DNA of 43,265 nt from the NCBI GenBank assembly GCA_944327625.1, contig CALVHL010000014.1, positions 1 to 43,265 on the forward strand, given 5' to 3'. Under the pieces are notes generated by a model. That model searched no databases and was not told the DNA's origin. It saw only the letters and a list, made by a program, of their open reading frames with translations. This DNA is from an uncultured Clostridia bacterium. Lineage in GTDB: Bacteria; Bacillota; Clostridia; Christensenellales; Borkfalkiaceae. Shown piece after piece: positions 24,111-43,265 of this stretch (within the stretch, counting starts at the first letter, position 1; every line of letters begins with the position of its first letter). The position numbers and the translations under genes are program-made.

Positions 24111-24149
24111 CCGCCCCGAGGGGAGAAAACCTCTCGGGGCGGTTTTTTT
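24111..24149 (+). terminator. strong intrinsic terminator
   Basis: CCGCCCCGAG (24111-24120) pairs with CTCGGGGCGG (24133-24142) and is followed directly by seven T. It lies 38 nt past the lipoprotein stop. Confidence 0.92.
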
Positions 24150-24166: not shown

Positions 24167-24273
24167 GCGGTAAAATGCGGCTTTTCGTCGTGGAATTGGC
24201 GGGGGTGATAGCGGTAAAATGCGGCTTTTCGTCGTGGAATTGGCGAGGTCTTTGCGGCAAAATGCGGCTTTCG
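24167..24273. repeat. 35-bp direct repeats, two identical copies plus one decayed
   Basis: Identical 35-bp copies occur at 24167-24201 and 24211-24245 (beginning GCGGTAAAATGCGGCTTTTC), 44 bp apart, with a third shortened copy at about 24254-24273. It is too short and few for a CRISPR array, and the spacers are about 9 bp. Confidence 0.8.
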
Positions 24274-24647: not shown

Positions 24648-27600
24648 ATGGGTAAATTCAGAAAATTCATGATAGCGCTCTGTCTCGTCGGCGGCATTTC
24701 CTGCCTTGTCGGCGCGGCTGCCTGTACGGCGACGGAAGAACCGGAATACTATCAGCTCACTTACTCCGGTAAGGGCGTTGATTTCATATTCCAGGATCAG
24801 CTTGACGGTTTTGAGAACGGCGGTTCTGTGCTTGAAGGCGTGGAAGTGCGCTTCACCGTAGCCCTTGGCGAGGGGGCGACGGGTACGCCTGCAATCTTCC
24901 TCAACGACCAGAAGCTCACCCCCGACGCGAACGGGGTGTATTCGTTCATAATGACGGGCGTAAGCAAGCTCACCGCGACGGACGTCAGCATGCTCAGCAC
25001 GCTTACTTTCGACAAGATGCTCACCGAAAAGGACGAGGACGGCAACGAATACGTCAGCGAACTGAGGGTAAAATATTATGACCTCGATGGCAAAGAGCTT
25101 GACGATACAGTCGAAGTGGTGGACGGTCAGTCGTTCAGCTTCAAGGTAAACGTCAGCGTTTACTATGAACAGGATTACAGCGTACTCTTCAATACAGAGG
25201 AACTCTATGCGAGTGACGGCGTGTACACCATACAGAGCATAGACGGCGACGCGACGATAAGCCTTGCGAATGTCGAACTTGAACAGAGCTTCATGCAGAG
25301 GGGCGACGGTTCGGGCACGGCGGATGATCCCTATCTTTTGAAGCGTCCCATCGACCTTTACAATATGGCTGCGCTCGTCAACAGCACATACTATGTCGGC
25401 TATAACATGGCTTACTATAAGCTGGCGGCGGATATCGACATGAAGGGCGAGCAGCTCTATGTCGCGGGCGACGCGTCGAGCAGCACGGCGGTATTCTGCG
25501 GCACTTTCGACGGCGCGGGGCACACTATAAGCAATTTCTACATCACCGACGAAGTCGTCGACCAGGAGACCTTTGACGAGGAATATCTGCCCTACGTCGG
25601 TCTTTTCGGCTATGCCACTGCGTCCAACTACGGTCCCGCGGTCATAAAGGACGTAACATTCAAAGATTATACGGTTGAAATTCATCCCGGCGCTGCGGGC
25701 GCGGGCGCTTACGTCGGCTCGCTCGTCGGATACGGCATAGGCGTGGAGATCTCGGGTTGCACTATGCTTGACGGCGAAGTTGTTGCCGAGGGCGACGACA
25801 ACCAGATGATCTGCATAGGCGGCATTGCGGGCGTATTGCAGGCGGCTTACAGTGACGCGACTCAGCCCCCGCTGACATTCGACAGTTTCGTATATGCCAG
25901 CAGTACTGACATAGAAGTGACGGGCAGCGGCACGCCCCGTTCGTCGGGCGGCATTGTCGGCTACCTCGTTTCGGCAGATACTGACGCGATAGCTTATGTC
26001 GCAGACTGCTACGCACTCGGCATAGTCACGGGAGGTATTCATGCAGGCGGTATAGTCGGCACGCTCGGCACTTTCTCGTCGGTATTCAACAGCTATGCGA
26101 CGGGCGAAGTAATCGCAAATAACTATATAAGCACGCAGGGGCTTGCAGATGATTATAAGGGCGCGTATGCGGGCGGCATCGTCGGCTATTCCGAGAGCGA
26201 CACGGTCATTTCGGGCTGCTATGCGGCTAACAGCGACCTCGAAGCCAAGTCGGTCAGCTCGACGGGCGGAAAGGTGTGGCATGCCACGGGCGAGATACTC
26301 GCAAAGACGCAGGAGGACGGCGAAAGCTCGGTTCTTTCCAGCGCGGCAATTATCAGAAACTGTCTTACCGACGAGAGCAATCTCAGCGGTTCGGACTTTG
26401 CGGACGAGCTCGGCTGGAACTCGGTCGAATGGTCGTTCGGCGGCACATATCCCGCACTCAATGACGTAACCGCACCCGTTTCGAGGGCTATTACCCTGAC
26501 GATTAAGACGACCGACGGCACAACTCAGGTGGTTGCGACCAAGGACGGATATTCGGCTATGTCGCACTGGTACGACGGCGCGCTCGACGAATATCTCGAA
26601 AGCAACGACGGAAAGAGGAGCTGGGGCTATTACTTCGACGCTCAGCTCAAAGACAGGGTGCCTGCGGGCTTCGTTCCCTCCGCGAGCATGACGCTCTATG
26701 TCGGATATGCCGACTATGGCGAAGTTACGGGCAGGTATTATATCGACGCGGCGGGCGCAACGACCGACGACACGGTCGGCACGGGCAGAATAACCGACTT
26801 TGTGCCCGGCAGCGCGTATATCGAACTGGTTGCAGACGGTACGCTCAATTTCCGCTACGGCGGCATGACCTATACTTCGACCTATTATTACGACGGCGAG
26901 ACGGTTTCCATGCCCTACGCGGCAATACTGTCGACGATATTTACCGACGCACGCACGGAGGGAGCGTTCTATAACCTGTCCGCGACGGTCGACGATAACG
27001 GGACGATGACGATAAGCTCGATTGCAAGCCTCGTATCTTCGACTTCGGGCGAAACGACCTACTACGGCGACGTAAACATAACCATAAAGGCGATTAAAGA
27101 GAATACGGATATTGTGTACGGCTCTTATTACGGGCTCAATACTACCTACACATTTGCGCAGGACGGCACGGGCACCAAGGTGAGCGGCAGCGCTTCCGAA
27201 ACCTTTACCTATAAACTCAACGGCGACGGCACTATGACGCTGACTTCGGGCAACGTGCAGACGATTGCGATGGTCAACAGCCTCGGTGAAATAACCAAGA
27301 TAGGCACGATAAACGTCAGCCTGCTCGACGAATTCGCGGGAACGTGGTCGAAGAACGCCAATGCAATGCTTACTGTCAGATTTGACGGGTTGGGCGGCGT
27401 GACCTTCTTCGGCACGACAGGTACCTATACGGTAGAGGACGGCCGCGCGCTCATGACGGTCGGCGGCGACAGCCATGAAGCTTACTTTGACGGCGGTCTG
27501 CTCGTCATCGACGGCGAAACCTATTCGCATGCGGACAGCTTCGCGGGTAAGTGGTTCTTCATGGGCAATAAGGAACAGATTGACCTGCAACTCAACGGCA

Positions 27601-29090
27601 TAGGCGCGGACGGCTACGGCGAGGCGATAATCTCCTATATGGGCGGCGTCGTCGCGGACGTTGCGGCGCAATACGACGTGACGGTAAGCGGAAACGTGAC
27701 CTATATAAGAATATATGTCGGCAACGTGCTCTACGGCGAGCTTTCGCTCTCGTCGGGCGACAAGGGCAACGCGGTGAGCGGTACGTTCTTCTCATTGCAC
27801 TACGACAGCTACTATGCAGAAGTCGGCTTCTATCTCTACGATAACTTCGAGGGAACGTGGACGGGCGTATCGGCAGATTTCGAGAGCGTGACCTTCAACG
27901 GCCGCGGCGCATTCGACGAGCAAGCCACCTCGCAGACCTACGCGTTCTCGGGTACGGCTACGATCAAGGCTGAGGGCAACGTCAGCAGAAGCGCGACCTA
28001 CTCTCTTATCGACGCCTGCAACGGCACGCTCGTTTCAGGCGGCAAGACTTATACGATAGTTTACGACGAACTTACGGGTATTGTCACCGTAAAGTCGGAC
28101 GATAACGACAACCTGCTCGCCCGCAGGGACGGCTGGTACGGCGTAGTTCTCTATGACGAAGCCGGTACAAGCTATACCTTTGACGGCAAAGGATATATCG
28201 GCGGCACGGTCACGCTTTCGGACGGCAGCACTTCGGAATATGTATTCGAGGACGGAATGCCCGTAATCGGCGGCGTTCCCCTGACGGCAGACGGCGAAAG
28301 GTTTGCGCTCGGCTCGCACTCGCTGTCGTTCAACACGGGCTTTGCAAAGGCATGGACGGCAAGCGGCAACAGGGCGGTGGAGATAACCGAGGTCCGCAGC
28401 GACTTCACGGCGACGCTCACCTTCCTCGGCGAACAGTACGTCCTGACCTATAACCCCGCCGACGGCACGCTCGTAAAGTCGGGCGACAGCATTGCCGACA
28501 AGACGGTCGTCAAGTTGCTCGGATCGAGCGAGATGAGTATAAGCGGACTGCTCGACGGCGACGACGCATATATCAACTGCATACTGACTGCCTCGCTCGA
28601 CGGCTGGCAGGGAGAATATACCTCGGCGGACGGCGCAAGCTGGACGTTCGACGGACTGGGCGCGGCGCTGTACGGCAGCGGAAAGGCCGTGCTTTCAAAG
28701 GGCGGCAATACGACCGAATATCAGTACTCGATAGCCGCTAACGGCGCGCCTCAGATAAGCGACGGCAGCACAAAGGTGTTTGTGCTGACCAACACCGACG
28801 ACGGATATGCTTCGGCGGACGGCAAGAAATATGACTTCGTCGCGCCAGACGCGCTCTGCGGTTCGGCGGCGATGGTGCAGTCGGGCGAAGTTATCGTCGA
28901 ATACTTCTTCGACGGCGGCGGCACACTCTACGAAAAGACTTCTGACGGCGCGGTTGCGGCGTACACCTACGCAATAGTTTCCGCCGACGAAGTGACGCTG
29001 ACTGCTCCCGACGGCAAGCAGTACAAGGGAACTCTCGTCAAGACGGCTAACTATTACCGTCTGACGCTCACGGAGCTCACCGAAGCATAA
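24648..29090 (+). CDS. giant GLUG-repeat lipoprotein with a repeated C-terminal beta module
   Basis: 1480 residues. The signal sequence ends GAAAC (Cys26 lipidated). Residues 220-520 show the pattern GTADDPYLL, LYNMAALVN, KLAADIDM, GTFDGAGHTISNFY and then GGIVGY repeats, which is the GLUG/adhesin-type beta-helix. From about 690 to 1480 a divergent module of 70-100 residues recurs about eight times, around cores such as FAGTWSKN, FEGTWTGV, WYGVVLYDEAGTSYTFDGKG and WQGEYTSADGASWTFDGLG. I do not recognise this module; it reads as small beta-barrel or sandwich units. No catalytic motif is visible. It would sit on the outer face of the membrane and bind a polymer or another cell. It is first in the run of genes that continues to the peptide transporter. 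Confidence 0.85.
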   Translation: MGKFRKFMIALCLVGGISCLVGAAACTATEEPEYYQLTYSGKGVDFIFQDQLDGFENGGSVLEGVEVRFTVALGEGATGTPAIFLNDQKLTPDANGVYSFIMTGVSKLTATDVSMLSTLTFDKMLTEKDEDGNEYVSELRVKYYDLDGKELDDTVEVVDGQSFSFKVNVSVYYEQDYSVLFNTEELYASDGVYTIQSIDGDATISLANVELEQSFMQRGDGSGTADDPYLLKRPIDLYNMAALVNSTYYVGYNMAYYKLAADIDMKGEQLYVAGDASSSTAVFCGTFDGAGHTISNFYITDEVVDQETFDEEYLPYVGLFGYATASNYGPAVIKDVTFKDYTVEIHPGAAGAGAYVGSLVGYGIGVEISGCTMLDGEVVAEGDDNQMICIGGIAGVLQAAYSDATQPPLTFDSFVYASSTDIEVTGSGTPRSSGGIVGYLVSADTDAIAYVADCYALGIVTGGIHAGGIVGTLGTFSSVFNSYATGEVIANNYISTQGLADDYKGAYAGGIVGYSESDTVISGCYAANSDLEAKSVSSTGGKVWHATGEILAKTQEDGESSVLSSAAIIRNCLTDESNLSGSDFADELGWNSVEWSFGGTYPALNDVTAPVSRAITLTIKTTDGTTQVVATKDGYSAMSHWYDGALDEYLESNDGKRSWGYYFDAQLKDRVPAGFVPSASMTLYVGYADYGEVTGRYYIDAAGATTDDTVGTGRITDFVPGSAYIELVADGTLNFRYGGMTYTSTYYYDGETVSMPYAAILSTIFTDARTEGAFYNLSATVDDNGTMTISSIASLVSSTSGETTYYGDVNITIKAIKENTDIVYGSYYGLNTTYTFAQDGTGTKVSGSASETFTYKLNGDGTMTLTSGNVQTIAMVNSLGEITKIGTINVSLLDEFAGTWSKNANAMLTVRFDGLGGVTFFGTTGTYTVEDGRALMTVGGDSHEAYFDGGLLVIDGETYSHADSFAGKWFFMGNKEQIDLQLNGIGADGYGEAIISYMGGVVADVAAQYDVTVSGNVTYIRIYVGNVLYGELSLSSGDKGNAVSGTFFSLHYDSYYAEVGFYLYDNFEGTWTGVSADFESVTFNGRGAFDEQATSQTYAFSGTATIKAEGNVSRSATYSLIDACNGTLVSGGKTYTIVYDELTGIVTVKSDDNDNLLARRDGWYGVVLYDEAGTSYTFDGKGYIGGTVTLSDGSTSEYVFEDGMPVIGGVPLTADGERFALGSHSLSFNTGFAKAWTASGNRAVEITEVRSDFTATLTFLGEQYVLTYNPADGTLVKSGDSIADKTVVKLLGSSEMSISGLLDGDDAYINCILTASLDGWQGEYTSADGASWTFDGLGAALYGSGKAVLSKGGNTTEYQYSIAANGAPQISDGSTKVFVLTNTDDGYASADGKKYDFVAPDALCGSAAMVQSGEVIVEYFFDGGGTLYEKTSDGAVAAYTYAIVSADEVTLTAPDGKQYKGTLVKTANYYRLTLTELTEA

Positions 29091-29142
29091 AATGAAGATT
29101 TGCGGATACCGCGCGGCAAAACGCGTCGGCGTCCGTCCCGAT

Positions 29143-29166
29143 TGCCCGCATAAGTCGATGCGGGCA
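29143..29166 (+). other. intercistronic hairpin
   Basis: A perfect 9-bp stem TGCCCGCAT/ATGCGGGCA with a 6-nt loop and no U-run, in the 113-bp gap between the GLUG lipoprotein and the subtilase. It probably stabilises or processes mRNA rather than ending transcription. Confidence 0.45.
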
Positions 29167-29203
29167 TACGGCGCAATCTGAGGGTTGCGTTCAGGAGGTT
29201 TTA

Positions 29204-32200
29204 ATGAGAAACACAAAGAAGATTAGCATATTCCGCAGGTCTGCCTGCGTAGGACTTACCGCGGTAATGGCGACGACCTTCGTCGCAGGACAGGCGTTGG
29301 CGTTTGCCGATGAAGATATCAGCGGGGCTTCGGGTGCGACCGTAAGCTACGAAAACGTCACCGGCGACATCGACCTGACGGACATAAGGCTTGCCAATCT
29401 CGACAAGTCGGTCGTGCTCGAAAACGATACTTCGTCGCTCGATCTGCCCGAATACTGCACGGTAATCGTCACGCTCGACGGCAAGACGCTGACAGAGAGA
29501 GCGGGCGGCGAGACCGTTTCGGAATATATTGCGACGGACGCGGGCAAGGACGCCGTAAAGGCAATAACGAGAGAGCAGAACGCCTTTCTTGCCTCGCTCA
29601 AAAAGGCGGCTATTTCCTACGAGCTGGTCGATACCTATAACGCCGTGCTCAACGCGGTCGCTATAGAGGTAAAGACCGACAGCCTCACGCAGATTAAGGA
29701 GCTGGGCGGCGTAGTCACCGTCTCGGTCTCCCAGACCTACGCCGTACCCGAGGCGGAGAGCGATTCGTCGTCGGGCGCACAGACCAATTACAGCAATATA
29801 TACGAAAACGGCATTTACAATTCTTCCGACCTCGTCGAGGCGGGCTATGACGGTAGCGGAATGACCGTGGCAATACTCGATACGGGTATAGACTATACCC
29901 ACGAGGCGTTCCTCGATATGCCCGAAGAAGTGTCGTTCACCAAGGAATATATCGAAGAAAGAATGGCGACGGATACCTTCAATTCGACCGTCATATCGGG
30001 CGCGACGGCGGACGACGTGTACATCAACGCCAAAATCCCCTACGCCTACGACTATGCGGACAAGGATGCGGACGTATATCCCTCCTATTCCCAGCACGGC
30101 ACGCACGTCGCGGGCATTGTCGGCGGCAAGGCTGACAGCTATTACAACAAGGACGGCGAAATAGTCACCGACGAAAACGGCAACGTCAAGTTCAGGGGCG
30201 TCGCTCCCGAAGCGCAGCTCGTCATCTGCAAGGTATTCACCGACGACCTGTACAGCAACGACCTCGGCGGCGCTGAGACCGAGGATATAATCGCCGCGCT
30301 CGACGACTGCGTCAAACTCGGCGTAGACGTCATCAATATGTCGCTCGGCTCGCGTTCGGGCTTCGCGTCCTCATCGCTCGGCCTCAACGAGAACGACGAC
30401 GAGGGCTATGCGCTCGAAAAGGTCTATTCGGCAATAAGGGAACAGGATATAAGCCTTATCGTTGCGGCAAGCAACGACTATTCGTCGGGCTACGGCTCGG
30501 CGTACGGCACCAACCTCGCCAGCAACCCCGACAGCGGCACGGTCGGTTCGCCTTCGACCTACGGCTCGGCTCTGTCGGTCGCCAGCGTCAACGGCCAGCG
30601 CGTGCCCTATCTGCTTGCAAACGCCACCGTTTCGGGCAATACCGTGACGGGCGGCGACGCCATTTACTATGAAGAATCGCGCAACGAGGACTCGGAGGCT
30701 TACAACTTCTTCGAGGATATTCTCGAAGATATGGACGTCGAGGAGGGACAGCCCGTTACGTTCAAATACGTCGTCGTACCCGGCACGGGCGCGGCGGGCG
30801 ACTATACCTCGACCATAAAGAAGGAACTCGCCGACGACGGCGGCTACGGCAAGGTAATCGCCGTAATAAGGCGCGGCGTTTCCTCATTCAAGGAAAAGAT
30901 TGAAACGGCGATGGAGATGGGCGCCGACGCAGTAATCGTCTATAACAACGTCGCGGGTATGATAAGAATGTCTCTCGAAGACCTCAGAAATCCCGTGCCT
31001 TCCATATCCGTATCCATAGATTCGGGACTGCTTCTGACGGGCTCCGGCACATCGAGGCGCACAACGGGTACGATAACCCTCTGCTCGAGCTATTCGGCAG
31101 GTCCCTTCATGAACGACTATTCGAGCTGGGGCCCCACGCCCGACCTGCAGATCAAGCCCGAAGTCACCTCCCACGGCGGCGAAGTCACTTCGACGGTTGC
31201 GGGCGGCTATGACGAGATGAGCGGCACTTCGATGGCGTCGCCCAACCTCGCGGGCTTCACGGCAATTTTAAGACAGTATCTCAGCAAGGACTGTTCGACG
31301 CTCTATTCCGACAACGTCGGTCTGACCGCGCTCACCAACCAGATACTCATGAGCACGGCTACGCTCGTATATGACCAGAACAAGCTTCCCTATTCGCCCA
31401 GAAAGCAGGGTGCGGGACTTGCTACTCTCGCAAACGCGTTCTCGACGCGCGCATATCTCTACACCAAGACCGAGGACGGCATGGTTATCGATCCCGACGC
31501 AGCGGCAGACGGCAGACCGAAAGCCGAGCTCGGCGAGGACAGGGAGAAGAAGGGCGTATATAACATAGTGTTCTACGTACGCAACTTCGGCGATAAGGAG
31601 CTGACGTTCGGCACGGACAGCTTAGTCATGAGCGAAACGCTTTCGGCGGACGGGCTTTCGGTTGCCGAAAAGGCGCACCTGTTCGACAATACGGTAAAGT
31701 GGAAGGTAGACGGCAAGTCCGTTTCCGAGGGCGGCAGCTTCACGGTTGCGGCGGGCGCTTCCGCCAAGGTGGAAACTACCATAACCCTGTCGGCCTCCGA
31801 CAAGAAATATATCGACGATAACTTCGTCAACGGCATGTACGTAGAGGGGTACATGATACTTGAAGGCAGCGGCGAACAGTGCGACCTCGTACTGCCCTTC
31901 CTGACCTACTACGGCGATTGGACGGCTGCGCCCATGCTCGACTATGACTGCTTCGAGATTGCGGCGTTCGACGCGGACACCTCCTACAAGGACGAAGAAA
32001 GACCGCAGGAAATGGTCTTTGCGACGCAGGCATATTCCTATTTCTACAACGAAAAGTACACCACGGGGCTTGGCTCCTTCTTGTACACGCAGGACGAGGA
32101 CCTCGAACACACCAACCAATACGTGTACACTTCCGAGGAACATACGGCAATCTCGGCGTATAACGAATACGAGGGCGAGACTTCGACGAACAACTATATG

Positions 32201-35200
32201 ACGCTTACGGGCATCAAGGCTCTGTATGCGGGACTTCTGAGAAATGCCGAAATCGTCACCTATACGCTCAAAAACGTCAATACGGGTGAAATTATCCCCG
32301 ACGACGAGGGCAATTACGTCAGAGAGGCTTACCGAATAGGTAAGGCTGCGGCAGGAGGCGGCGCGGCTTCACCTTCGCTCATAGAGCTCGGCCTGAAAAC
32401 GACCGAACTCGGGCTTGAAGCCAACGGCAAATACGAACTGAGTTTCAGCTTCTACTTCGACTATGACGACTATGCGGCAGGCAAGGAAGCGGGAGAGGAC
32501 AACACCTTCACGATGTCCTTCTATATCGACTATGAAGCGCCTGTGCTCGTAGATTCGAGGGTGAGGTTCAGAGACTATAAGGACAGCGCCAACAACGTCA
32601 AACAGCAGGTTTACCTCGACCTCGACGTATACGACAATCATTATCCCCAGGCGATAATGCTCTGCTATGCCGAGGACGAGAACTCCTCCGACTCTGAGGC
32701 GGTGAGCATACAGCTCGCCACCGAGTACGTCACCCCTATACTCAATGCCGAGCGCAATTCGGTGACGACCGTCTCTATCGACATAACCGACATCTATGAG
32801 GAGTACGGCGACAGGCTGTACGTCGAGATAGACGACTATGCTATGAACCACAATGTCTATGCGCTCAATATTGTAAGTTCGGCGACGAGCGTCGCACCCT
32901 CCGACTTCACGATAGCCGAGGGCAGCGAAGTGACGATAGGCGTAAACGAAGCGAAGAAGCTGACCGTAAACAATCTCGGCACGGCGCACATCAACAACCT
33001 TGAATGGAGATCTGACAGAGAGAGCGTCGTATTGGTCAAGGACGGCGAAATCTTCGGCGTAAAAGAGGGTACGACCTACGTCACGGCGATAGGCGGCAAC
33101 AATAAATCACAGCGAATAAAAGTCACGGTAGTCGACAGCGACACGACGCTGTCCATGCCGACGGTAAGCTTCGGCACTATGCTCAACTCTGCCGACGCGC
33201 CCGTCAAGGCGACGGGAACGGTGGAGGTCAACCCCGCGCAGCAATTCAAGCTGTCGCTCGTCGCCGATCCGTGGTACTATGACCTCGATCAGCTCGAATT
33301 TACCTGGGCGAGCACCGATCCGAAGATAGCGTCGGTCGACCAGGAAGGCAACGTGACGGTCTATGAATTCGACGAAGTCAAGACGGTTACGATCACCGCA
33401 ACCTGCACCACCTCGGCGTCCTGTAAGGCGGTAGTAACCCTGCGAGTACTTGAACCGTACACAATACAGAACGGCGTGCTGACAGCCTACCACGGCTGGG
33501 GCGGCGAACTCATCGACGGTCAGAGGGTACTGACCATACCTTCGGACAAGGCGATAACCTCCATAAATGCAGAGGCGTTCAAAGAGAACGAGAACGTCGA
33601 AGTCATCATCATCCCCAAGGGCATAACGACGATAGGCGAAAGGGCGTTCTGGGACTGCACCAACCTCAAAGAGATATACTTCGTCAGTCGCGAAAAGCTG
33701 ACCGTCAAGGAATCTTCTCTTACGCAGATTTCGGCGGACGCGTTTATGGGCTGTACCTCGCTCAGAAAGGTAGACCTCAGCAACTGTAAGGTATTCACGG
33801 TTGCGACGACGGCATTCGCAAATTGCACCGCCCTCGAAGAAGTCGTCAACATGGGCGCGATAGGCACAATGTACGACGGAGTGTTCATGAACTGTACTTC
33901 GCTCCGCTCGGCAGATATTTCGCTTCTCCACATTGCGGGCGCAAACCTGTTCGCGGGCTGTACCTCGCTCGAAGAAGTAATAACCTCCGCGACGACGGCG
34001 ATGGGCGCAAATATGTTCTACGGCTGCACGTCGCTCAAAGAACTGACGATACTCAATCCCACCGTACCCGCAAATGCGTTCTACGGCTGTACTTCGCTTC
34101 AAAGCGTGACCTTCGGCGACGCTTCGTCGACGGCGACTAAGGCGCTGACGATAGGCGCAAACGCCTTCTACGGCTGTTCGTCGCTCTCGACGGTGACTTT
34201 CAACGGCAGCGTTGCCTCGATAGGCGACAAGGCGTTCGCAAACTGCAGCTCGCTCAAAGAAGTCAGCCTGCCCGCAGGCACGACGTCCTTCGGCAGCGAC
34301 GTGTTCGGCGGAACTACCGACGCGACGGTCAGCGGTTCGGGTTATGAACTGACCTCGGACGGCGCGCTCTACCGCGGCACTACGCTCGTGCTCGCTCCGG
34401 CAACGGTAGACGCGGACTTCGCGTTCAGGGCAGGCACGACGGCGATAGGCGACTATGCCTTCTCGGGCAGCACGCTCGTCGGAAGGGACACTTTCGACCT
34501 CGCGGGCATAACCTCGATAGGCAAGGGCGCGTTCTACGGGCTTTCGGGGCTCGCCTCGATCGAGCTTCCCGCGGTTGCCGAGATAGGCGATTACGCATTC
34601 TACGGCACGGGACTTGACGGCATAGTCATTCCCGCAAGCGTCGAAAGGATAGGCGCACGCGCCTTTGACGGCTCTACGATAAAGACCATAACCTTTGCCG
34701 ACGGCTCCAAGCTCGCGGAGATAGGCGATTACGCATTCTACAAGTGCTCGCTGCTCACCTCCGTCAGCCTGCCCGACGGCGTTGCAAAGATAGGCGATCA
34801 GGCGTTCGCATATTGCAGCCAGCTCGTCTCGGCGGAGATTTCCTCCGTAAAGACCATGGGCGAGGGCGCGTTCGCGTACTGCCCCGCGCTTAAAACCGTG
34901 ACCTTCGGTTCGGGCGCGACGGCGACGGGAACTTATACCTTCCTCAGCACGACGTCGAGCTCGCTCAGCTCGGTAACGCTCAGCGACGCAATGACCGAAA
35001 TCGGCGAGGGCGCGTTCGCATACTGCACCTCGCTAAAAACGATAGATCTCAGAAACGTGACGACGATAGGCTCCAACGCCTTTGCCAACAGCGGAATTAA
35101 GACGCTCGCCAACCTCGAAAAGGTAAAGGAAATAGGCAGCACGGCGTTCGCATACTGCACGTCGCTTACGGGCGTCAACCTCAGCGCGGCGACGAGCATA

Positions 35201-36607
35201 TATTCCGAGGCGTTCATCAACAGCTCCTCTCTCGCGAGCGTGACGCTCGGCACGTCGCTCGAAGGCATAGGCGACTATGCGTTCTACGGCACGTCGCTCG
35301 TCAGCGTAAATATTCCCGCAAGCTGCACCTACGTCGGCGCTTCGGCGTTCAACTCGATAACGCCTTTAAGGACGATAACCGTCAGCGCGGGCAATGAGAA
35401 CTACTTTGCCGAAGACGGCGTTCTTTACAGGAACATCGAGGGCGAGGAGGGCTCTTACGAGCTGTGCGCATACCCCAACGCAAGGGTTGCGACGACTTCG
35501 GGCGAGACCATAACCTATACCGTCAAGGAAGGCACGGTGGCAATACAGAAGTTTGCGTTCGCAACCGTTCCCTCGACTTCGATAACCATGGTAATCCTGC
35601 CCTGGACGCTCAAAACGATAGGCGACGGCGCATTCTTCGGAAGCGGCATAACCTCCTACCAGTTCGAGAGCATAGCCGCTCCCACGCTGCTCGAAGGCTA
35701 TTCCGACAGGGATACGACGAGGTATTCGGCAAGCTCGTTCTTCTTCCGCAACTTCGTCGACAGCATAGTCAACTATGTTCCCTATCAGCCTCACACTTCG
35801 GCTTCGGCGGTCAGCACGCTCAGGATACTCTATCCCGAAAACGGCACGGGCTATGACAGCTATATCTTCACCATGTATTTCGGCAACAAGGTATTGCTCG
35901 ACGAAATGCCCGAAGACAGCTCCCGTCAGCTCAAAGAGATGCTCGAAGGCTTCCCCGCCGCGTCCGAAGTTTCCTCGTGGACGACTTCCAACAAGACCTT
36001 GGCGGAAGTTACGGCGTTTGCCGACAGCGTAAAGCAGGCGCACATTCTGTACAACGGACTTACCACAGACTATCAGAGGGAGTTCGTCGGCGAGGACAAT
36101 ATCCTCAAACTCTTTGACATCGAGACGGCGCTCAAACCCGTCAAGGCGGCGTTCGGCATAACCGTATACGTCGACAAGGTGGCGGTGGACGCAAGTTCGA
36201 CGCACAAGACGCAGTACGTCGAGGGCGAAAAGTTCGACCTTACGGGGCTCAAACTTGTTCTTACCTACGACGACTATTCGCAGACGGTCATCGACGCGGT
36301 CGGCAATTTCAAGCTTTCGTCGCTTGACGACAGAGGGCTTATGATATACGATCAGTCCGTGCGCCTCGAAGGCATCGAGATGTACGAGGGACTGAGCGTC
36401 ACCGTCTCCGTCAAGGTAACGGCTTCGGAAGGCGGCTCTACCGAAACCCCGCCCGAAACGGGCAAGCAGGGCTGCAAGGGTGCAGCTGAAAGTTCGGCAA
36501 TACTGGCGGGCGCAGCGCTCGCAGTCGTGGTTGTCGCGCTGACGCTCAGAAAGGCGCGTCGTCTTGCCGTAAATGCGGAAAAGACGGACGGTTCCGATAA
36601 AAAATAA
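29204..36607 (+). CDS. giant surface subtilase (S8) with BspA-like leucine-rich repeats
   Basis: 2467 residues, ATG 29204 with AGGAGG 5 nt upstream. The signal peptide runs to about residue 33 and an I9-like propeptide to about 85-180. The S8 domain carries Asp226 (AILDTGID), His298 (QHGTHVAG), Asn424 (AASND) and Ser676 (SGTSMASP), with a PA insert at about 520-610. A C5a-peptidase-like Fn3 region (about 735-900) and two Ig-like/Big2 segments (about 1224-1420) follow. About twenty BspA/LRR_5 repeats (IGDYAF.., IPASV..) span about 1425-2150, then a further Ig-like segment (about 2321-2400). The C-terminus is ETGKQGCKG, a membrane helix and a basic tail. It should cleave host or dietary proteins at the cell surface. 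All triad residues are present, so it is probably active. Confidence 0.93.
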   Translation: MRNTKKISIFRRSACVGLTAVMATTFVAGQALAFADEDISGASGATVSYENVTGDIDLTDIRLANLDKSVVLENDTSSLDLPEYCTVIVTLDGKTLTERAGGETVSEYIATDAGKDAVKAITREQNAFLASLKKAAISYELVDTYNAVLNAVAIEVKTDSLTQIKELGGVVTVSVSQTYAVPEAESDSSSGAQTNYSNIYENGIYNSSDLVEAGYDGSGMTVAILDTGIDYTHEAFLDMPEEVSFTKEYIEERMATDTFNSTVISGATADDVYINAKIPYAYDYADKDADVYPSYSQHGTHVAGIVGGKADSYYNKDGEIVTDENGNVKFRGVAPEAQLVICKVFTDDLYSNDLGGAETEDIIAALDDCVKLGVDVINMSLGSRSGFASSSLGLNENDDEGYALEKVYSAIREQDISLIVAASNDYSSGYGSAYGTNLASNPDSGTVGSPSTYGSALSVASVNGQRVPYLLANATVSGNTVTGGDAIYYEESRNEDSEAYNFFEDILEDMDVEEGQPVTFKYVVVPGTGAAGDYTSTIKKELADDGGYGKVIAVIRRGVSSFKEKIETAMEMGADAVIVYNNVAGMIRMSLEDLRNPVPSISVSIDSGLLLTGSGTSRRTTGTITLCSSYSAGPFMNDYSSWGPTPDLQIKPEVTSHGGEVTSTVAGGYDEMSGTSMASPNLAGFTAILRQYLSKDCSTLYSDNVGLTALTNQILMSTATLVYDQNKLPYSPRKQGAGLATLANAFSTRAYLYTKTEDGMVIDPDAAADGRPKAELGEDREKKGVYNIVFYVRNFGDKELTFGTDSLVMSETLSADGLSVAEKAHLFDNTVKWKVDGKSVSEGGSFTVAAGASAKVETTITLSASDKKYIDDNFVNGMYVEGYMILEGSGEQCDLVLPFLTYYGDWTAAPMLDYDCFEIAAFDADTSYKDEERPQEMVFATQAYSYFYNEKYTTGLGSFLYTQDEDLEHTNQYVYTSEEHTAISAYNEYEGETSTNNYMTLTGIKALYAGLLRNAEIVTYTLKNVNTGEIIPDDEGNYVREAYRIGKAAAGGGAASPSLIELGLKTTELGLEANGKYELSFSFYFDYDDYAAGKEAGEDNTFTMSFYIDYEAPVLVDSRVRFRDYKDSANNVKQQVYLDLDVYDNHYPQAIMLCYAEDENSSDSEAVSIQLATEYVTPILNAERNSVTTVSIDITDIYEEYGDRLYVEIDDYAMNHNVYALNIVSSATSVAPSDFTIAEGSEVTIGVNEAKKLTVNNLGTAHINNLEWRSDRESVVLVKDGEIFGVKEGTTYVTAIGGNNKSQRIKVTVVDSDTTLSMPTVSFGTMLNSADAPVKATGTVEVNPAQQFKLSLVADPWYYDLDQLEFTWASTDPKIASVDQEGNVTVYEFDEVKTVTITATCTTSASCKAVVTLRVLEPYTIQNGVLTAYHGWGGELIDGQRVLTIPSDKAITSINAEAFKENENVEVIIIPKGITTIGERAFWDCTNLKEIYFVSREKLTVKESSLTQISADAFMGCTSLRKVDLSNCKVFTVATTAFANCTALEEVVNMGAIGTMYDGVFMNCTSLRSADISLLHIAGANLFAGCTSLEEVITSATTAMGANMFYGCTSLKELTILNPTVPANAFYGCTSLQSVTFGDASSTATKALTIGANAFYGCSSLSTVTFNGSVASIGDKAFANCSSLKEVSLPAGTTSFGSDVFGGTTDATVSGSGYELTSDGALYRGTTLVLAPATVDADFAFRAGTTAIGDYAFSGSTLVGRDTFDLAGITSIGKGAFYGLSGLASIELPAVAEIGDYAFYGTGLDGIVIPASVERIGARAFDGSTIKTITFADGSKLAEIGDYAFYKCSLLTSVSLPDGVAKIGDQAFAYCSQLVSAEISSVKTMGEGAFAYCPALKTVTFGSGATATGTYTFLSTTSSSLSSVTLSDAMTEIGEGAFAYCTSLKTIDLRNVTTIGSNAFANSGIKTLANLEKVKEIGSTAFAYCTSLTGVNLSAATSIYSEAFINSSSLASVTLGTSLEGIGDYAFYGTSLVSVNIPASCTYVGASAFNSITPLRTITVSAGNENYFAEDGVLYRNIEGEEGSYELCAYPNARVATTSGETITYTVKEGTVAIQKFAFATVPSTSITMVILPWTLKTIGDGAFFGSGITSYQFESIAAPTLLEGYSDRDTTRYSASSFFFRNFVDSIVNYVPYQPHTSASAVSTLRILYPENGTGYDSYIFTMYFGNKVLLDEMPEDSSRQLKEMLEGFPAASEVSSWTTSNKTLAEVTAFADSVKQAHILYNGLTTDYQREFVGEDNILKLFDIETALKPVKAAFGITVYVDKVAVDASSTHKTQYVEGEKFDLTGLKLVLTYDDYSQTVIDAVGNFKLSSLDDRGLMIYDQSVRLEGIEMYEGLSVTVSVKVTASEGGSTETPPETGKQGCKGAAESSAILAGAALAVVVVALTLRKARRLAVNAEKTDGSDKK

Positions 36608-36627
36608 ACGCTGAGGATTTTACGGCA

Positions 36628-38031
36628 ATGACAAGAAGAATAAAAATCTGGCTGATCGCGCTCTGCACGGCGCTGTGCGCATGCTGCGCCTTTGCGGGCT
36701 GTTCGATAGGCAAGGAGAGCCTCGAAGATATACTCTCGCGATATAACTGCAACGTCACCTATTACGGCAACGGCGGCGACTTCAACGGCTCTAAATCCAT
36801 CTTCGTCAAGGATATATATTTCAACTGCGGCGACGAGGGACAGCCCTTCTTCGACATAGGCGTGAGCGGTGAAACCTATATTCAGCGCTCGGGCTATGAC
36901 CTCGTCGGCTGGTTCCTGCCCGCAAGGTACGAGGACGGCGAGCACGAGGGCGAGGTTATGTACACCTACATTCCCGAGGGCGAGACCGAGGCGGTGCCCG
37001 TCTATCCCGTAACCGACGAAAACGGCGACGTGGTGACCGATACTTCCGGTCGCCGTCCGCTGTTCGCCCGCGAGGGAGTAGACGAGGAAATTCTCGAAAG
37101 CGAAGTCGTGGTTGTTCCGTCCGAAACGCAGGTGACGAGCGAGTATATCTTAAATGCGGGCGACGACATAATTGTCTGCGCCGACTGGGTACTCTCAGCA
37201 CAGCTCGAATATATCCTCGTCTGCGATGAAGACCTTGTCCTGACCGACGGCGAGAAAGAATACCGCAACGGCGACATAATCAAAAGCGTGACGTTCATCG
37301 GCAATTCGATGTCGCCCAGCCCTTCGGAGCCGCTCAAACTTGAAGGCGGCACGTTCGTCAGCACCTATCTCGATCCCGAGTGTACGCAGCAGATCAACCC
37401 CATACAGCGTCCCGAGGAGGGCAACGCGCAGGCGTACAGCTGGTATATCGCGGGCGAGTGGACGCTCGTTACCTCCGACAAGAGCTCCGTCGCCGATATG
37501 TTCGCGGGAATGTACGACGAAGATGCGGCGTTCTATGTGCTCGAAGACATAGACTGTTCCGACATGGGTACTTTCAGCCTCAACACGGCGAGCGACTTGT
37601 TCTCGACCAAAGCCACCATACAGGGCAACGGTCACACCATATCCAACATCACTTTCAGTCAGCAGACTCAGACAGGTCTGATCTATTCGATATTCGGCAC
37701 GGTTGCGGCTCAGGCCAACATAACCGACCTCACGCTCGACGGCGTAACCATAAAAATTACCGCGAGGACGAGCGACGTTTCGGCTTATGCGCTGGCAAGC
37801 AGCGTAGACGCGGCGGCAAAAATAGATAACCTTGTCATAAACGACGTAACGATGTCCATATCCGCAAACGGCAATAAGATAAACAATATCAAATACGACG
37901 AGGAGAGCGGACAGACGGTGGTTTCGGGCGGTTGGCTGTTCGGCGGAGTAGCGAGCGATGAAGAGTTGCTTGAACAGTTCGCGGGCAAACTGACCGTGAC
38001 GGGCGAAAACACCGTAGAGATGGCGGTATAA
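36628..38031 (+). CDS. lipoprotein with a Flg_new-like repeat and a GLUG-like tail
   Basis: 467 residues with signal ending AFAGC (Cys25). Residues about 35-95 (NVTYYGNGGDFNGS...GYDLVGWF) resemble the Listeria-Bacteroides (Flg_new, InlB B-repeat) module, a small beta-grasp-like unit of surface proteins. The C-terminal third (TIQGNGHTISNITF, LTLDGVTI, LVINDVTM) resembles the GLUG-type beta-helix of the 1480-residue protein. No enzyme motif is seen. The gene starts 20 nt after the subtilase stop with a weak ribosome site (GAGG 12 nt upstream), so coupled translation is likely. The next gene, a peptide-binding protein, is 49 nt on. A role as accessory binding protein is inferred from position. 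Confidence 0.8.
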   Translation: MTRRIKIWLIALCTALCACCAFAGCSIGKESLEDILSRYNCNVTYYGNGGDFNGSKSIFVKDIYFNCGDEGQPFFDIGVSGETYIQRSGYDLVGWFLPARYEDGEHEGEVMYTYIPEGETEAVPVYPVTDENGDVVTDTSGRRPLFAREGVDEEILESEVVVVPSETQVTSEYILNAGDDIIVCADWVLSAQLEYILVCDEDLVLTDGEKEYRNGDIIKSVTFIGNSMSPSPSEPLKLEGGTFVSTYLDPECTQQINPIQRPEEGNAQAYSWYIAGEWTLVTSDKSSVADMFAGMYDEDAAFYVLEDIDCSDMGTFSLNTASDLFSTKATIQGNGHTISNITFSQQTQTGLIYSIFGTVAAQANITDLTLDGVTIKITARTSDVSAYALASSVDAAAKIDNLVINDVTMSISANGNKINNIKYDEESGQTVVSGGWLFGGVASDEELLEQFAGKLTVTGENTVEMAV

Positions 38032-38080
38032 CGGGTGACAACCCTTACTAATAGCATAATCCAATAAAGGAGGATTTTCA

Positions 38081-40711
38081 GTGAAAAAGAAATTATTGAC
38101 GAGTATAGTATGCTTTGCAATGTGCGGAGCAATGGTATTCGGCGCAACCGGTTGCAAGAAGACGACGGGCGGCAGAGATCCCGAAACTTCGCCCCTGAAG
38201 CTTGCGATAGGCGCGGTTGACCAGAACTTCAATCCGCTGTTCTATACGGCGGCAAACGACGGCGAAATTGCCAACATGACGCAGGCGTCGCTTGTAACAA
38301 GCAAAATAGAAATGCAGGGCAGCGAGCAGGTTGCAGTACTGGCTTACGGCAATGACCAGCCGACTTTCGCGCTCGACTATATCGAAACCTATTACGATGC
38401 GTCGGGCAAGGCGATAGGCTACGGCAAGGGCGGCACTTCCCTCACGGGCAGTTCGTCCGCCGAAGGTTCGACGACCTACGAATTCGTCATCAAGAAGGGC
38501 GTAAAGGACAGCATGGGCGTAGAGATGAACGTAATGGACGTTCTGTTCAACTTCTATGTGTTGCTCGACCGTTCTTACAGCGGTTCGTCTACAATCTACT
38601 CGACCAAAATCAAGGGCCTGCAGGCTTACAGACAGCAGGATCCCAACGCGATAGAGGGTTCGGAAGGTTCTAACGCAGAATACTACACGGCGGCTCAGGT
38701 GAGAATTGACGAGCTCATCAGCTGGTCCGAGCGCAAGACCGAACTTTCCGAACAGGGCGAAAAGGACCTCGAAAAGGTCAAGGAGTTCTACAAGCAGGAA
38801 CTCACCTCCGACTGGAACAGCGTTCAGACCAGCTGGGTGGAGACGTATAAGGATTACACCTTCACCGAGGAATGGCAGGCGTTCATGTTCGTCGAAGGTC
38901 TCGTGCAGAGGCAGTCGTACACCAACGCGACGGGCGGCACTTCTTACAGACAGGACGAGAACGGCAAGTATATGACGACGCTCGATCCCGATCCTTCGCA
39001 GGGTAACACGGTAGTACACCAGAAACTCATCGATGACATTGCAGAGGTCACGGAGGGCAAGTCCGAGACGGAGGCGCTTGAAGCGAGAAAGAACTACTGC
39101 ATCGACCTGCTCTATGAAAACAACACCATGAGGTCGGGCATAAAGAACATCCTCACGTACAACACGACGGCTACGAGCGCTCTCGACTTTTTCATGGCAG
39201 AGGAGCGTTCGGAAGCAATGAAGACCGAGGACGGCAGCCTCAAAGTTCCCAACATCTCGGGCATTACGGTATATCACTCCGACAAGCTCGAAAACAAGTA
39301 CGACAGCAGCAAGACCGTCGACCTCGGCGAGGACTATGACATTCTCAGAATAGAGATTTCGGGCGTCGACCCCAAGGCAAAGTGGAACTTCGCAATCCCC
39401 GTAACGCCCATGCACTACTATTCCGACGAGGAGCATTACAATGCGGCAATGGCTTCGTACAATAACGACACGGTCTATACCTCGGCAGCCAAGGACTTCG
39501 GCGTAGAGTGCAACGACATCACGTGGTTCGACAGCGTCGTTGCGGCTGACTATAAGAATACCGTTCCCGTCGGTGCGGGCGCTTACAAGGCGGTCAACAA
39601 CAACTATACCGACATAAGCGAAAGCCAGCTTAAAAACGGCACTTCGACCTTCTTCGACAACAACACTACGCGTTTTGCAAGGAATACCAATTTCGAAACT
39701 TTCGGCGATGGCGTTCAGAACGCAATAATCAACAGAGTGCAGATTCAGGTCATCAGTGACGACCAGATTGTAGATTCGCTCAAAACCGGACTTATCGACT
39801 ATGGTACGCCTACGGCTACTTCGACCAACCAGAACGCCGTAAATACGGGTACGCTTAAAAGCATCAAGTACCTTACGGGCGGTTACGGCTATGTCGGCAT
39901 CAACCCCAAGTATGTACCCGACATCGAGGTCAGAGAGGCGATAATGCACGTCTTCAACACTTCGCGTATCATCAACTATTACGGCAAAGACCTTGCAACC
40001 ATAATTTCGAGACCTGTTTCTATGACGTCGTGGGCATATCCCGAAGACGCGGATTACTACGAAATGTGGACGGACGAAGACCAGATAATTGAACACATCG
40101 AAAGTTCGAGAAACTGGGTATATAACGAAGCTACCAAGAAGATGGAGGACAGAAACGGCAACCAGATGAGCCTGACCTTCACGCTTGCGGGCGAAACGAC
40201 CGATCACCCCGCATTCGATATGTTCACAGAAGCGGCGGCAACTCTTGAAAAATGCGGCATCAAGGTAACCGTTACGGCGGACGTAACGGCGCTCAAAAAG
40301 CTGGTTACGGGCGACCTTGCAATATGGGCGGCAGCGTGGTCGTCGAGCATCGATCCCGATCCCTACCAGATCTATTCGGCAGACAGCCAGGCGTCCAGCA
40401 CCAAGAACTGGTATAAGGACGGCATCGTTTCCGACGCTACCGGTACTTTCGAAAAGGAGCAGATAATCGTCGAAGAACTCACCCAGCTCATCGACGACGG
40501 CAGGTCGACGCTCAACCAGACCGAGCGTGAAGAAATATACGCACAGTGCTATGATCTCATAATGGATCTCGCCGTCGAATTCCCCACCTATCAGCGTTAC
40601 GACCTGTTCGTATACGACAGCGCGGTAATCGAAGCAAGTTCGCTCACGCCCAACCCCTCGTATCTGATGGGGCCTACGGCAGAGCTCTGGAAGGTTGCTT
40701 ACGTCAAGTAA
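38081..40711 (+). CDS. oppA: oversized peptide/oligopeptide ABC transporter substrate-binding lipoprotein
   Basis: The start is GTG 38081 with AAAGGAGG 7 nt upstream. The signal ends GATGC (Cys25). At 876 residues it is about 300 longer than usual SBP_bac_5 proteins. The normal fold is visible at the N-terminus (KLAIGAVDQNFNPLF, MGVEMNVMDVLFNFYVLLD) and in the C-terminal half (GAGAYKA, YLTGGYGYVGINPKY, VREAIMHVFNTSRI, LTFTLAGE, WSSSIDPDPYQIY). Between about residues 165 and 430 lies a mainly helical, charged insertion (ERKTELSEQGEKDLEKVKEF). It captures peptides for the OppB/OppC channel encoded next. The insertion may hold unusual ligands or contact surface partners. Substrate class (peptide) comes from family and neighbours. 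Confidence 0.9.
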   Translation: MKKKLLTSIVCFAMCGAMVFGATGCKKTTGGRDPETSPLKLAIGAVDQNFNPLFYTAANDGEIANMTQASLVTSKIEMQGSEQVAVLAYGNDQPTFALDYIETYYDASGKAIGYGKGGTSLTGSSSAEGSTTYEFVIKKGVKDSMGVEMNVMDVLFNFYVLLDRSYSGSSTIYSTKIKGLQAYRQQDPNAIEGSEGSNAEYYTAAQVRIDELISWSERKTELSEQGEKDLEKVKEFYKQELTSDWNSVQTSWVETYKDYTFTEEWQAFMFVEGLVQRQSYTNATGGTSYRQDENGKYMTTLDPDPSQGNTVVHQKLIDDIAEVTEGKSETEALEARKNYCIDLLYENNTMRSGIKNILTYNTTATSALDFFMAEERSEAMKTEDGSLKVPNISGITVYHSDKLENKYDSSKTVDLGEDYDILRIEISGVDPKAKWNFAIPVTPMHYYSDEEHYNAAMASYNNDTVYTSAAKDFGVECNDITWFDSVVAADYKNTVPVGAGAYKAVNNNYTDISESQLKNGTSTFFDNNTTRFARNTNFETFGDGVQNAIINRVQIQVISDDQIVDSLKTGLIDYGTPTATSTNQNAVNTGTLKSIKYLTGGYGYVGINPKYVPDIEVREAIMHVFNTSRIINYYGKDLATIISRPVSMTSWAYPEDADYYEMWTDEDQIIEHIESSRNWVYNEATKKMEDRNGNQMSLTFTLAGETTDHPAFDMFTEAAATLEKCGIKVTVTADVTALKKLVTGDLAIWAAAWSSSIDPDPYQIYSADSQASSTKNWYKDGIVSDATGTFEKEQIIVEELTQLIDDGRSTLNQTEREEIYAQCYDLIMDLAVEFPTYQRYDLFVYDSAVIEASSLTPNPSYLMGPTAELWKVAYVK

Positions 40712-40750
40712 TTTTCTGCTCATAATAAACGGTTAATGTAAATTTTTCGT

Positions 40751-40776
40751 CCCTCTCCCCGAGAGAGGGGGGAGGG
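40751..40776 (+). other. hairpin between the binding protein and permease genes
   Basis: CCCTCTCCCC pairs with GGGGGGAGGG around a 6-nt loop; no U-run follows. Hairpins in this position commonly let the binding protein be made in excess over the permease by protecting the upstream mRNA. Confidence 0.55.
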
Positions 40777-40801
40777 GCGGAAAAGCATTGCGGAGAAGAT
40801 A

Positions 40802-41839
40802 ATGGTTAAGTACATAATTAAAAGACTGCTGCTCTCCATACTCATTCTGTTCGGCGTGTCAGTCATACTGTATGTGTTGCTGCGCTTCATGCCCTCGAAC
40901 TTCATCGAGGACCAGTACATGATCTCGCACGCTCAGGGCGGCGCGTCCGAAGAGCAGATGAAAGCCGACCTCCAGCTCATACTTGCCGAATACGGCCTTG
41001 ACGACGACAGTTTCTGGGGCATAGTAAAGGGCTATTTCATGTGGCTTGGCAAATTTTTGCAGGGCGACATGGGCGAAAGCTTCAAATACGGCAAGAGCGT
41101 GCAGGCGGTCATCGGGCAGTATATGTGGCTGTCTTTCGGCATAAGTTTCGTGGCGCTCATTCTTGAAATGATAATCGCCATCCCCCTCGGCATCAAGTGC
41201 GCGGTAAACCAGTACGGCAAGCTGGACTATGTAGCGACCGTCCTCTGCATGGTCGGCATAGCGTTCCCGTCGTTCTTCCTCGGCAACCTGTTCATAAAGT
41301 GGTTTGCCGTCGATCTCGGCTGGTTCCCCGTTCAGGGTATGACTACGGAGGTCATAACCGAGGTAATTGACGGCGAGGCAGTGATAACCGTTTCAAGTTT
41401 CTTCAACTATATTTTTGACTATATCCGCTGCCTCATTCTGCCGATGTCGGTCATGGTAATTCTGTCGATAGGCGGACTTATGAGATATACCCGTACCAAC
41501 ACGCTCGAAGTGCTCAACGCCGACTATATCAGAACGGCGCGCGCCAAGGGACTTTCGGAGGGTAAGGTCGTATATAAGCATGTATTCCGCAACACCATGA
41601 TTCCTCTCGTAACCCAGCTTTCGTTCACGCTTCCGTCGCTGTTCGGCGGCGCTATGATAACCGAGCAGATATTCAGTCTGCCCGGCATAGGTCAGATAGC
41701 GTACAACGGAATGCTTGCGGGCGACATATTCCTCGCAATGGGCTATAATATGTTCATTGCGGTGCTGACCGTCATCGGCGTACTGTTTGCAGACATAATG
41801 TATGCCGTCGTCGATCCCAGGGTTAAGCTTGTCGGATAA
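40802..41839 (+). CDS. oppB: oligopeptide ABC transporter permease OppB
   Basis: 345 residues with an N-terminal helix (IIKRLLLSILILFGVSVILYVL), the OppB-type extracellular loop, and five further helices. The cytoplasmic EAA loop is ADYIRTARAKGLSEGKVVYKH, the contact for the ATPases. The FFLGNLFIKWF and LPGIGQIAYNGM segments are typical of DppB/OppB. GGAG lies 6 nt before ATG 40802. OppC starts 10 nt after its stop. It forms half of the membrane channel. Confidence 0.95.
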   Translation: MVKYIIKRLLLSILILFGVSVILYVLLRFMPSNFIEDQYMISHAQGGASEEQMKADLQLILAEYGLDDDSFWGIVKGYFMWLGKFLQGDMGESFKYGKSVQAVIGQYMWLSFGISFVALILEMIIAIPLGIKCAVNQYGKLDYVATVLCMVGIAFPSFFLGNLFIKWFAVDLGWFPVQGMTTEVITEVIDGEAVITVSSFFNYIFDYIRCLILPMSVMVILSIGGLMRYTRTNTLEVLNADYIRTARAKGLSEGKVVYKHVFRNTMIPLVTQLSFTLPSLFGGAMITEQIFSLPGIGQIAYNGMLAGDIFLAMGYNMFIAVLTVIGVLFADIMYAVVDPRVKLVG

Positions 41840-41849
41840 GGAGAAAGGT

Positions 41850-42941
41850 ATGGAAGAAAAAGAAAAAATTGCTCAGCCCGCCGAAGAAAATGCGGCGGAG
41901 GCAAAGAGCAACTTCAACGACAATCTGCACGGCGAAAGCCTTGCCGACAGGACAAAGGTACTCTCGCCCTGGGCGACGGTCATGAAGCGGTTTTTCCGCT
42001 CCAAACTGTCCGTCATCGGTCTCGTGACTATAATTTTCCTCTTTCTCTTCTCGTTCGTCGGCCCGCTGTTCTCGCCGTGGGCGGCAAACGGAGGAAAGGT
42101 CATAGACTATAACCCCGCGCTCATAATCGACCAATATTCCTATCCCACGATAGAATATACAGTAAACGGCGTAAAATACAGCGCAATGGATCTCACCATA
42201 ACCGCTCCCGACTTCGTAAGACTGGGCGGCATAAGCTGGTCGCACTGGCTGGGTACGGACGCAAGCGGCTATGACGTTCTTACGCGCCTCATGCTCGGCG
42301 GCAGAATTTCGCTGACGATAGGCTTCGTAGTCGTCATACTCGAAACTGTGATAGGCGTAGTGCTCGGCGGGCTTGCTGGCTATTTCGGCAAGTGGGTGGA
42401 TAACCTCATAATGCGTATAGTCGACATTTTAAGCTGTATTCCCACCCTGCCCATAATGCTCATACTCTCCGTCATCTTCACGGAAAGCGGGCTGGGCGGC
42501 AGCATATCCAAACTCTACTATATGATGATATTCCTCTGCGCGATAGGCTGGACGGGTACGGCAAGACTTGTAAGAGGTCAGATACTTACACTCAGAGAGC
42601 AGGAATTCATGCTCGCCGCCAAGGCTTCGGGGCTTTCGACGGGCTCAAAGATATTCAAACACCTCATGCCTAACGTAGTGCCTCAGCTCATCGTGTCCAT
42701 GACCTTAGGTCTCGGCAGCGTCATACTCATGGAGGCGACGCTCGGCTTCCTCAACCTCGGCGCGCCGCTCGGCACGGCGACGTGGGGCAACCTCATAAAC
42801 CTTGCAAGCACTTCGGAATACAGAGAATACTATCCCAACCTGTGGATAGGCGCAGGTATCTGCATAACGCTTGCAATACTCGCGTTCAACTTTGTCGGCG
42901 ACGGTCTGAGGGACGCCTTCGATCCCAAGATGAAGAGGTAA
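41850..42941 (+). CDS. oppC: oligopeptide ABC transporter permease OppC
   Basis: I start at ATG 41850 with AAGGAG 6 nt upstream (363 residues); an upstream in-frame start would overlap oppB and lacks a ribosome site. It has a charged N-terminal tail of about 45 residues, one membrane helix (about 52-72), and an extracellular segment ending in the OppC signature [20 protein letters not shown]. Five more helices follow, with EAA loop [19 protein letters not shown]. It pairs with OppB to form the translocation pore. The next gene, the ATPase, begins 4 nt after its stop. Confidence 0.95.
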
Positions 42942-42945
42942 AAGT

Positions 42946-43265
42946 ATGGCGGATAAGAAACATTACATAAGCCGTTCGGAATCGCGCGCGATAGCAAAGG
43001 AAAATTCCAGGGCGATAAAGCACTTTGAAAAGATGAAAAAGCGCAAGTGCAAGCCCGAAGAATATACCGCGGTCATGCAGGACGACAACAATATCGTCGA
43101 ATTCGACGACCTGCACACCTATTTCTTCTCGGACGCGGGCACAGTTAAGGCGGTCAACGGCGTAAGCTTTTCCATACCCGCTGGCTCGACGGTCGGCGTC
43201 GTCGGCGAATCGGGCTGCGGCAAGAGCGTCACTTCGCTCTCCCTCATGCAGCTCGTTCAGGCGCC
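42946..43265 (+). CDS. oppD: oligopeptide ABC transporter ATPase OppD, N-terminal part
   Basis: The gene opens at ATG 42946 and runs off the window after 106 codons. After a basic, helical extension of about 50 residues ([19 protein letters not shown]) not usual for OppD, the ABC domain begins ([20 protein letters not shown]). Walker A is GESGCGKS at about residues 88-95. OppD-type proteins hydrolyse ATP for peptide import, normally with OppF, which should lie just outside the window. Confidence 0.93.

Follow-up and report, generated by a model that had tools for sequence, protein, structure and literature searches.

A conserved gene run in Clostridia that probably couples a giant surface protease to peptide import

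Gene content and organization of the run

The contig examined here (CALVHL010000014.1, 43265 bases, the whole of which we call the window) belongs to the 1.83-Mb, 96.9% complete genome of an uncultured Clostridia bacterium and carries, from position 24648 to its end, a run of + strand genes for a giant S8 protease, two predicted lipoproteins and an Opp-type oligopeptide importer. In the list of open reading frames (ORFs), the run comprises six complete genes and the 5' part of oppD, which is incomplete because the contig end falls inside it, with successive gaps of 113, 20, 49, 90, 10 and 4 nt. Protein identities were assigned by Pfam, NCBIfam and PDB searches. An earlier note on this DNA had described a one-directional set of six genes and an oppD start with gaps of 4-113 nt, made up of lipoproteins, a giant protease, an oversized peptide-binding protein and OppBC(D), and both the ORF coordinates and the domain searches agree with it.

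Gene 1 (lipo1, 24648-29090) encodes a predicted lipoprotein of 1480 amino acids (aa) with a GLUG-like region and repeated beta-rich units, and gene 2 (SUBT, 29204-36607) the S8 protease of 2467 aa, identified by Pfam and PDB searches. Gene 3 (lipo3, 36628-38031) encodes a second predicted lipoprotein, of 467 aa, and gene 4 (SBP, 38081-40711) an SBP_bac_5 lipoprotein of 876 aa with a long extra stretch. The permease genes follow, oppB at 40802-41839 (345 aa; BPD_transp_1, 6.3e-34 in Pfam) and oppC at 41850-42941 (BPD_transp_1, 1.7e-35; OppC_N, 2.8e-12), and then the ATPase gene oppD (42946-43265; ABC_tran, 3.9e-06), ended by the contig end. The oppC frame is open from 41802, within oppB, where the listed ORF begins, but a start at 41850, with AAGGAGAAAGGT just before it, is likelier.

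The 5' boundary of the transcription unit is likely a terminator at 24110-24143 (+), which lies after the upstream gene and has a 14-pair stem with 11 G-C pairs followed by TTTTTT. A search of the six gaps of the run found no terminator-like site, as the earlier note had held for strong terminators. That note did not mention that two of the gaps fold strongly, at −51.5 kcal/mol between lipo1 and SUBT and at −42.3 kcal/mol between SBP and oppB, the latter with an 18-pair hairpin at 40743-40784 (+); neither hairpin has a T-run behind it. The SBP-oppB hairpin is possibly an mRNA stabiliser or an expression step. In genus relatives, a terminator-like site occurred in 1 of 133 gaps (seven junction types, 19 loci each), and many adjacent frames overlap by 4-11 nt or sit 2-30 nt apart, with some gaps of 60-183 nt. 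Within 600 nt 5' of gene 1, such a site was present in five of 12 genus relatives (L166, L167, L170, L175 and L177) and was not found by the same search in the other seven. The lack of terminator-like sites in the gaps is consistent with a single transcript over all genes.

Conservation of synteny

We searched the genus with gene 3 as query (E<=0.001), which matched 36 of 61 genomes, and examined 20 of those loci. The order lipo1-SUBT-lipo3-SBP-oppB-oppC-oppD-oppF was present in 18 of the 20; L032 and L039 end at contig ends. At L049, gene 3 was missed by BLAST and was found by profile in the counterpart record L119. Because the order is conserved in relatives, a chance arrangement of the run is excluded.

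SBP and protease profiles were then compared on one family sample of 151 genomes. After weak rows were dropped (G092, G095, G116 and G122 of 88 for SBP; G072 and G142 of 79 for the protease), 84 genomes were positive for SBP and 77 for the protease. Both occurred together in 77 genomes and SBP alone in seven, while 67 had neither and none had the protease without SBP. In 63 of the 77, both genes are on the same strand and no more than 15 kb apart; the protease is 5' in 54 and 3' in 10, one genome (G190) having both arrangements. Once lipo3 rows below 94 bits were dropped, lipo3 stood directly 5' of SBP in 79 of 84 family genomes. Conserved synteny, which the earlier note had named as a point on which its reading could fail, was thus found among the genus loci and in both family comparisons. 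The genome with both arrangements holds two versions of the system (L061 and L062), with the protease 5' in one and 3' in the other, and these fall in different parts of the SBP tree.

The giant protease and the lipoproteins

SUBT has an N-terminal signal, an S8 domain with a PA insert, fn3_5, a Big_2-like stretch, BspA-type leucine-rich repeats (LRRs) and a C-terminal hydrophobic stretch; PA (2.6e-08) and fn3_5 (1e-07) score above the Pfam cut-off and Big_2 below it. The catalytic set D226, H298, N424 and S676 is invariant in alignments of 14 and 33 sequences, the window protein included. PDB matches were C5a peptidase, SpyCEP and cell envelope proteinase A. Against the family model NF040553 (SGO_0316/SGO_0317), residues 113-921 aligned with 204 bits where the curated cut-off is 1400, so that SUBT is not a member. 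No LPXTG-like wall anchor was matched in the window protein (the near match PPETG lies at 2416), and among 68 distinct tails of relatives one had an LPXTG-like match and 63 a hydrophobic stretch. Some members of the wider S8 cell-envelope proteinase family lack an LPXTG anchor. A Gly-Cys pair stands ahead of the hydrophobic tail in the window protein and, by pattern, in 27 of the 68 tails (for example L052, L055, L057, L065, L085 and L091), and it might be a sorting signal.

The lipo1 product has a lipobox-like AAAC, and its GLUG match (E 0.0079) falls under the cut-off. A lipo1 homologue stands 5' of the protease gene in all 12 genus relatives examined and is split over two frames in L167. 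The predicted fold of lipo3, two InlB B-repeat-like parts and a beta-helix, is compatible with, rather than proof of, a binder, and both lipoproteins may bind protein. Some OppB frames (L101, L106, L111, L120 and L068) are 484-597 aa long with a beta-rich insert behind the first helix, and by eye the repeats in these inserts look like gene 1 units.

The peptide importer

An Opp/App importer set consists of an SBP_bac_5 binder, two permeases and two ATPases in one run. The binder, B, C and part of D lie in the window, and full oppD and oppF are present in genus relatives, to whose oppD the window part is 71-95% identical over about 100 residues. The best NCBIfam scores were with Opp4A for SBP (77 bits against a cut-off of 650), Opp4B for OppB (225 against 450) and Opp4C for OppC (304 against 350), all three below the equivalog cut-offs. 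When SBP was compared by Foldseek, by profile and by VIA, AppA with a bound nonapeptide ranked first each time. SBP exceeds AppA by about 360 residues, and its model shares the binder fold of lactococcal OppA. Going by this fold match, SBP may bind peptide.

Gene 4 was the only SBP_bac_5 match in its own genome, and a search there confined to PTR2/POT-type transporters, among peptide transporter families, gave no match. With no other SBP_bac_5 protein and no POT found, it is plausible that this importer is the main peptide route of the genome. The OppD/F tail domain oligo_HPY was not matched in the genome either, which fits the contig break inside oppD.

A small membrane protein beside oppF

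Directly behind oppF, relatives encode a small protein, about 70-106 residues long, whose start is basic and whose C-terminus carries a single hydrophobic helix (for example at L030:2355-2606 (-), L118:17483-17779 (+) and L157:16204-16449 (+)). Its motif is DDGR[TV]IAxM, with the genus version LDTxTTFADMN. The gene is absent from the window because the contig ends first; judging from relatives, the contig has also lost the rest of oppD and oppF. We counted 94 distinct loci with room for the gene, after dropping near-identical loci and three loci without room. The profile search placed it behind oppF at 80 of the 94 loci and ahead of gene 3 at two; it was also located behind oppF in L138 and L148, and ahead of gene 3 in L109. 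None of nine representatives exceeded the cut-off of a Pfam or NCBIfam family, the string DDGRTIADM had no match in the literature search, and titles and opening parts of abstracts held nothing specific on oppF paired with such a protein.

Among 291 genomes sampled across the class, 61 matched the small protein at E<=0.01, 22 of them strongly (49 bits or more). All 22 are among the 28 genomes of that sample with a strong long SBP (150 bits or more), and in 20 the small gene lies within 9 kb of SBP. As its gene sits beside that of the ATPase, the small protein may be an accessory of the importer. In other families (e.g. G398, G437 and G334), some weak matches are found close to ordinary opp genes.

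Wider distribution and history

We scanned named genomes and consider here the best 80 of 588 loci. These come from metagenome-assembled genomes (MAGs), mostly labelled Clostridia or Clostridiales; by record label alone they include Candidatus Coproplasma avicola, Scatosoma and Gallimonas, and some Oscillospiraceae, Erysipelotrichaceae and Acholeplasmatales. Many of their titles name an animal gut (roe deer, sheep, goat or cattle), and many give no source. Among these 80, the protease is 5' in 56 and 3' in seven, and lipo3 is directly 5' of SBP in 78.

Protease-like sequences (E<=1e-20) occurred in 38 of the 291 class-wide genomes. Outside the family, three genomes (G233, G326 and G393) have both a long SBP and such a protease, on different contigs. 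Fourteen long-SBP loci of other families were examined: 13 have SBP followed by opp genes, one (L156) begins at a contig start, and four have a gene-3 homologue after oppF.

In a quick SBP tree, a strongly supported branch separates a group of 102 rows, which includes all protease-linked loci, from the 14 other-family loci, and the 3' position of the protease requires at least three changes on supported branches. From this unevenly sampled tree, it seems that the importer is the older part, and that the protease was added to it within a single section of the tree and later changed position several times or at least twice. Three loci from MAGs labelled Acholeplasmatales (L116, L121 and L136) group with the window-family loci on the tree, possibly through transfer or because the MAGs are mislabelled.

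Relation to known systems

The clearest precedent is the PrtP-Opp system of lactic acid bacteria, in which oligopeptides released by an S8 cell-envelope proteinase at the surface are taken up through OppABCDF; the protease is related to SUBT and the binder fold is common to both. Passages on Lactococcus lactis SK11 place prtP/prtM/pcp and pepO2/pepF2/oppABCDF2 on different plasmids (PMC2827410), PrtP is described in the passages cited as peptidoglycan-bound with a maturase, PrtM (PMC6365430), and those in other Lactococcus papers give the same division of labour between proteinase and Opp (PMC6365430, PMC3138775). In contrast, the locus described here is a single run with an LRR-bearing protease, a lengthened binder, two lipoproteins and, in relatives, the small membrane protein, and the tails of this protease group rarely have LPXTG.

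The importer resembles Opp4/App in its best scores and in the match of the SBP model to AppA, but it falls below the family cut-offs and has a longer SBP. The protease shares its S8-PA-fn3_5 core with the LPXTG-anchored SGO_0316/SGO_0317 peptidase, C5a peptidase and SpyCEP, whereas it adds a BspA LRR block and its anchoring looks different. The polysaccharide utilisation loci (PULs) of Bacteroidota, which have SusC/SusD, likewise combine genes for surface binding, degradation and import. A "PUL for protein" would be an image by analogy. Import here is of the ABC type and the presumed substrate class is protein rather than glycan; Pfam found no SusC/SusD domain in the run. The earlier note knew of no described system of this composition. 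Our literature searches found none either, although PrtP with Opp is a clear functional precedent. Titles and opening parts of abstracts in the open-licence literature, which are weak evidence on this point, held no prior description of such a locus, and those on Coproplasma held nothing specific to it.

Proposed function and alternatives

We consider it probable that these genes form an operon with which the cell feeds on extracellular protein, coupling surface proteolysis to peptide import. After export, the S8 protease would be anchored in the membrane through its C-terminal segment and would expose its LRR and beta-rich parts, and the two lipoproteins would keep protein, or the protease itself, on the cell surface. 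Held protein would be cleaved to oligopeptides, which the oversized OppA-type lipoprotein would capture and OppBCDF, with the small membrane protein, would import for intracellular peptidases. Gene order, protein families, intact catalytic residues, the predicted binder fold and conserved linkage are what the analysis shows; from these we infer the single transcript, surface display, the substrate, binding by the lipoproteins and the role of the small protein.

Several observations weigh against the proposal. Protease and SBP are unlinked in the assembly in 14 of the 77 genomes that have both, and in one (G145) 231 kb of a single contig separates them. For at least one of the 14, G013, the separation looks like no more than a contig that breaks off within oppC (L070, L071); in G145, G151 and G109 a lipo1-like gene adjoins the protease, and lipo3-SBP-oppBCDF stand together elsewhere (L052-L057). 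Lipo3-like matches above 94 bits lie away from any SBP in four of 85 rows. Of the 19 genomes by which the genus is represented in the family sample, three have neither SBP nor protease although each is 95% complete, and the system is therefore not essential to the genus. The examined stretch holds no protease in 17 of the best 80 of 588 loci, and no such protease in any of the 14 other-family long-SBP loci. The small gene was not found in nine of the 94 loci, and 39 further class-sample genomes have weak matches to it. Nickel, sugars and opines are also ligands of family-5 binders with this fold, which leaves the best match and the linkage with the protease as the grounds for peptide specificity.

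The protease might instead attack surface proteins of the host or of competitors, in the way that C5a peptidase and SpyCEP attack host factors, with peptide import a by-product. These two enzymes are its closest solved relatives, many of the best 80 of 588 records are from animal gut samples by title, and B-repeats, LRRs and beta-helices occur in adhesins. Nevertheless, the PDB match list that contains them also includes a cell envelope proteinase (31mr), co-inheritance with the Opp importer and lipo3 points to uptake, and no protease of this family that acts on host factors is known to us from a run shared with opp genes; we regard this alternative as unlikely. It is rather less credible still that the importer takes a non-peptide substrate while the protease has no role beyond the maturation or trimming of surface proteins of its own cell, given the nonapeptide-bound AppA match, the lack of any sugar-cutting domain in the run by Pfam and the absence from the family sample of a protease genome without SBP. 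Opp systems of Gram-positives import signalling peptides, and PDB 8are is Bacillus subtilis OppA with a PhrE-derived peptide, but a loop in which the protease processes a secreted signal for re-import by Opp is very improbable, as no response regulator is present among run ORFs of at least 100 aa (the range of that check) and such a loop would be unlikely to be built from two lipoproteins and an LRR-bearing protease of 2467 aa.

Beyond the feeding operon itself, we find nearly as much to favour as to doubt a broader reading: that this is a dedicated, widespread protein-utilisation locus of Clostridia, a Gram-positive, protein-eating counterpart of PULs, whose protease and Opp modules are separable yet kept in the same genomes and whose importer has the hitherto unrecognised single-helix protein as a standard part. 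Protein-degrading gut bacteria and their genes are far less mapped than glycan breakdown. A recognisable cluster would allow candidate protein-feeding uncultured Clostridia to be read from metagenomes, as PULs do for glycans, and the small protein would be a new candidate part of Opp importers.

Neighbouring features of the window

Upstream of the run, the gene at 20957-24073 is lipoprotein-like and includes a short stretch, GEKGEDGEDG, that resembles collagen. Four of 12 relatives have a homologue of it ahead of gene 1, and the strong terminator parts this gene from the run. Between the terminator and gene 1, a 44-bp tandem repeat is present in 2.4 copies (24167-24271). Farther away, 2724-6984 (-) holds same-direction genes for Cthe_2159-like carbohydrate-binding, trypsin-like protease and histidine kinase proteins, and 11596-12849 (+) holds a gene of the choloylglycine hydrolase family.
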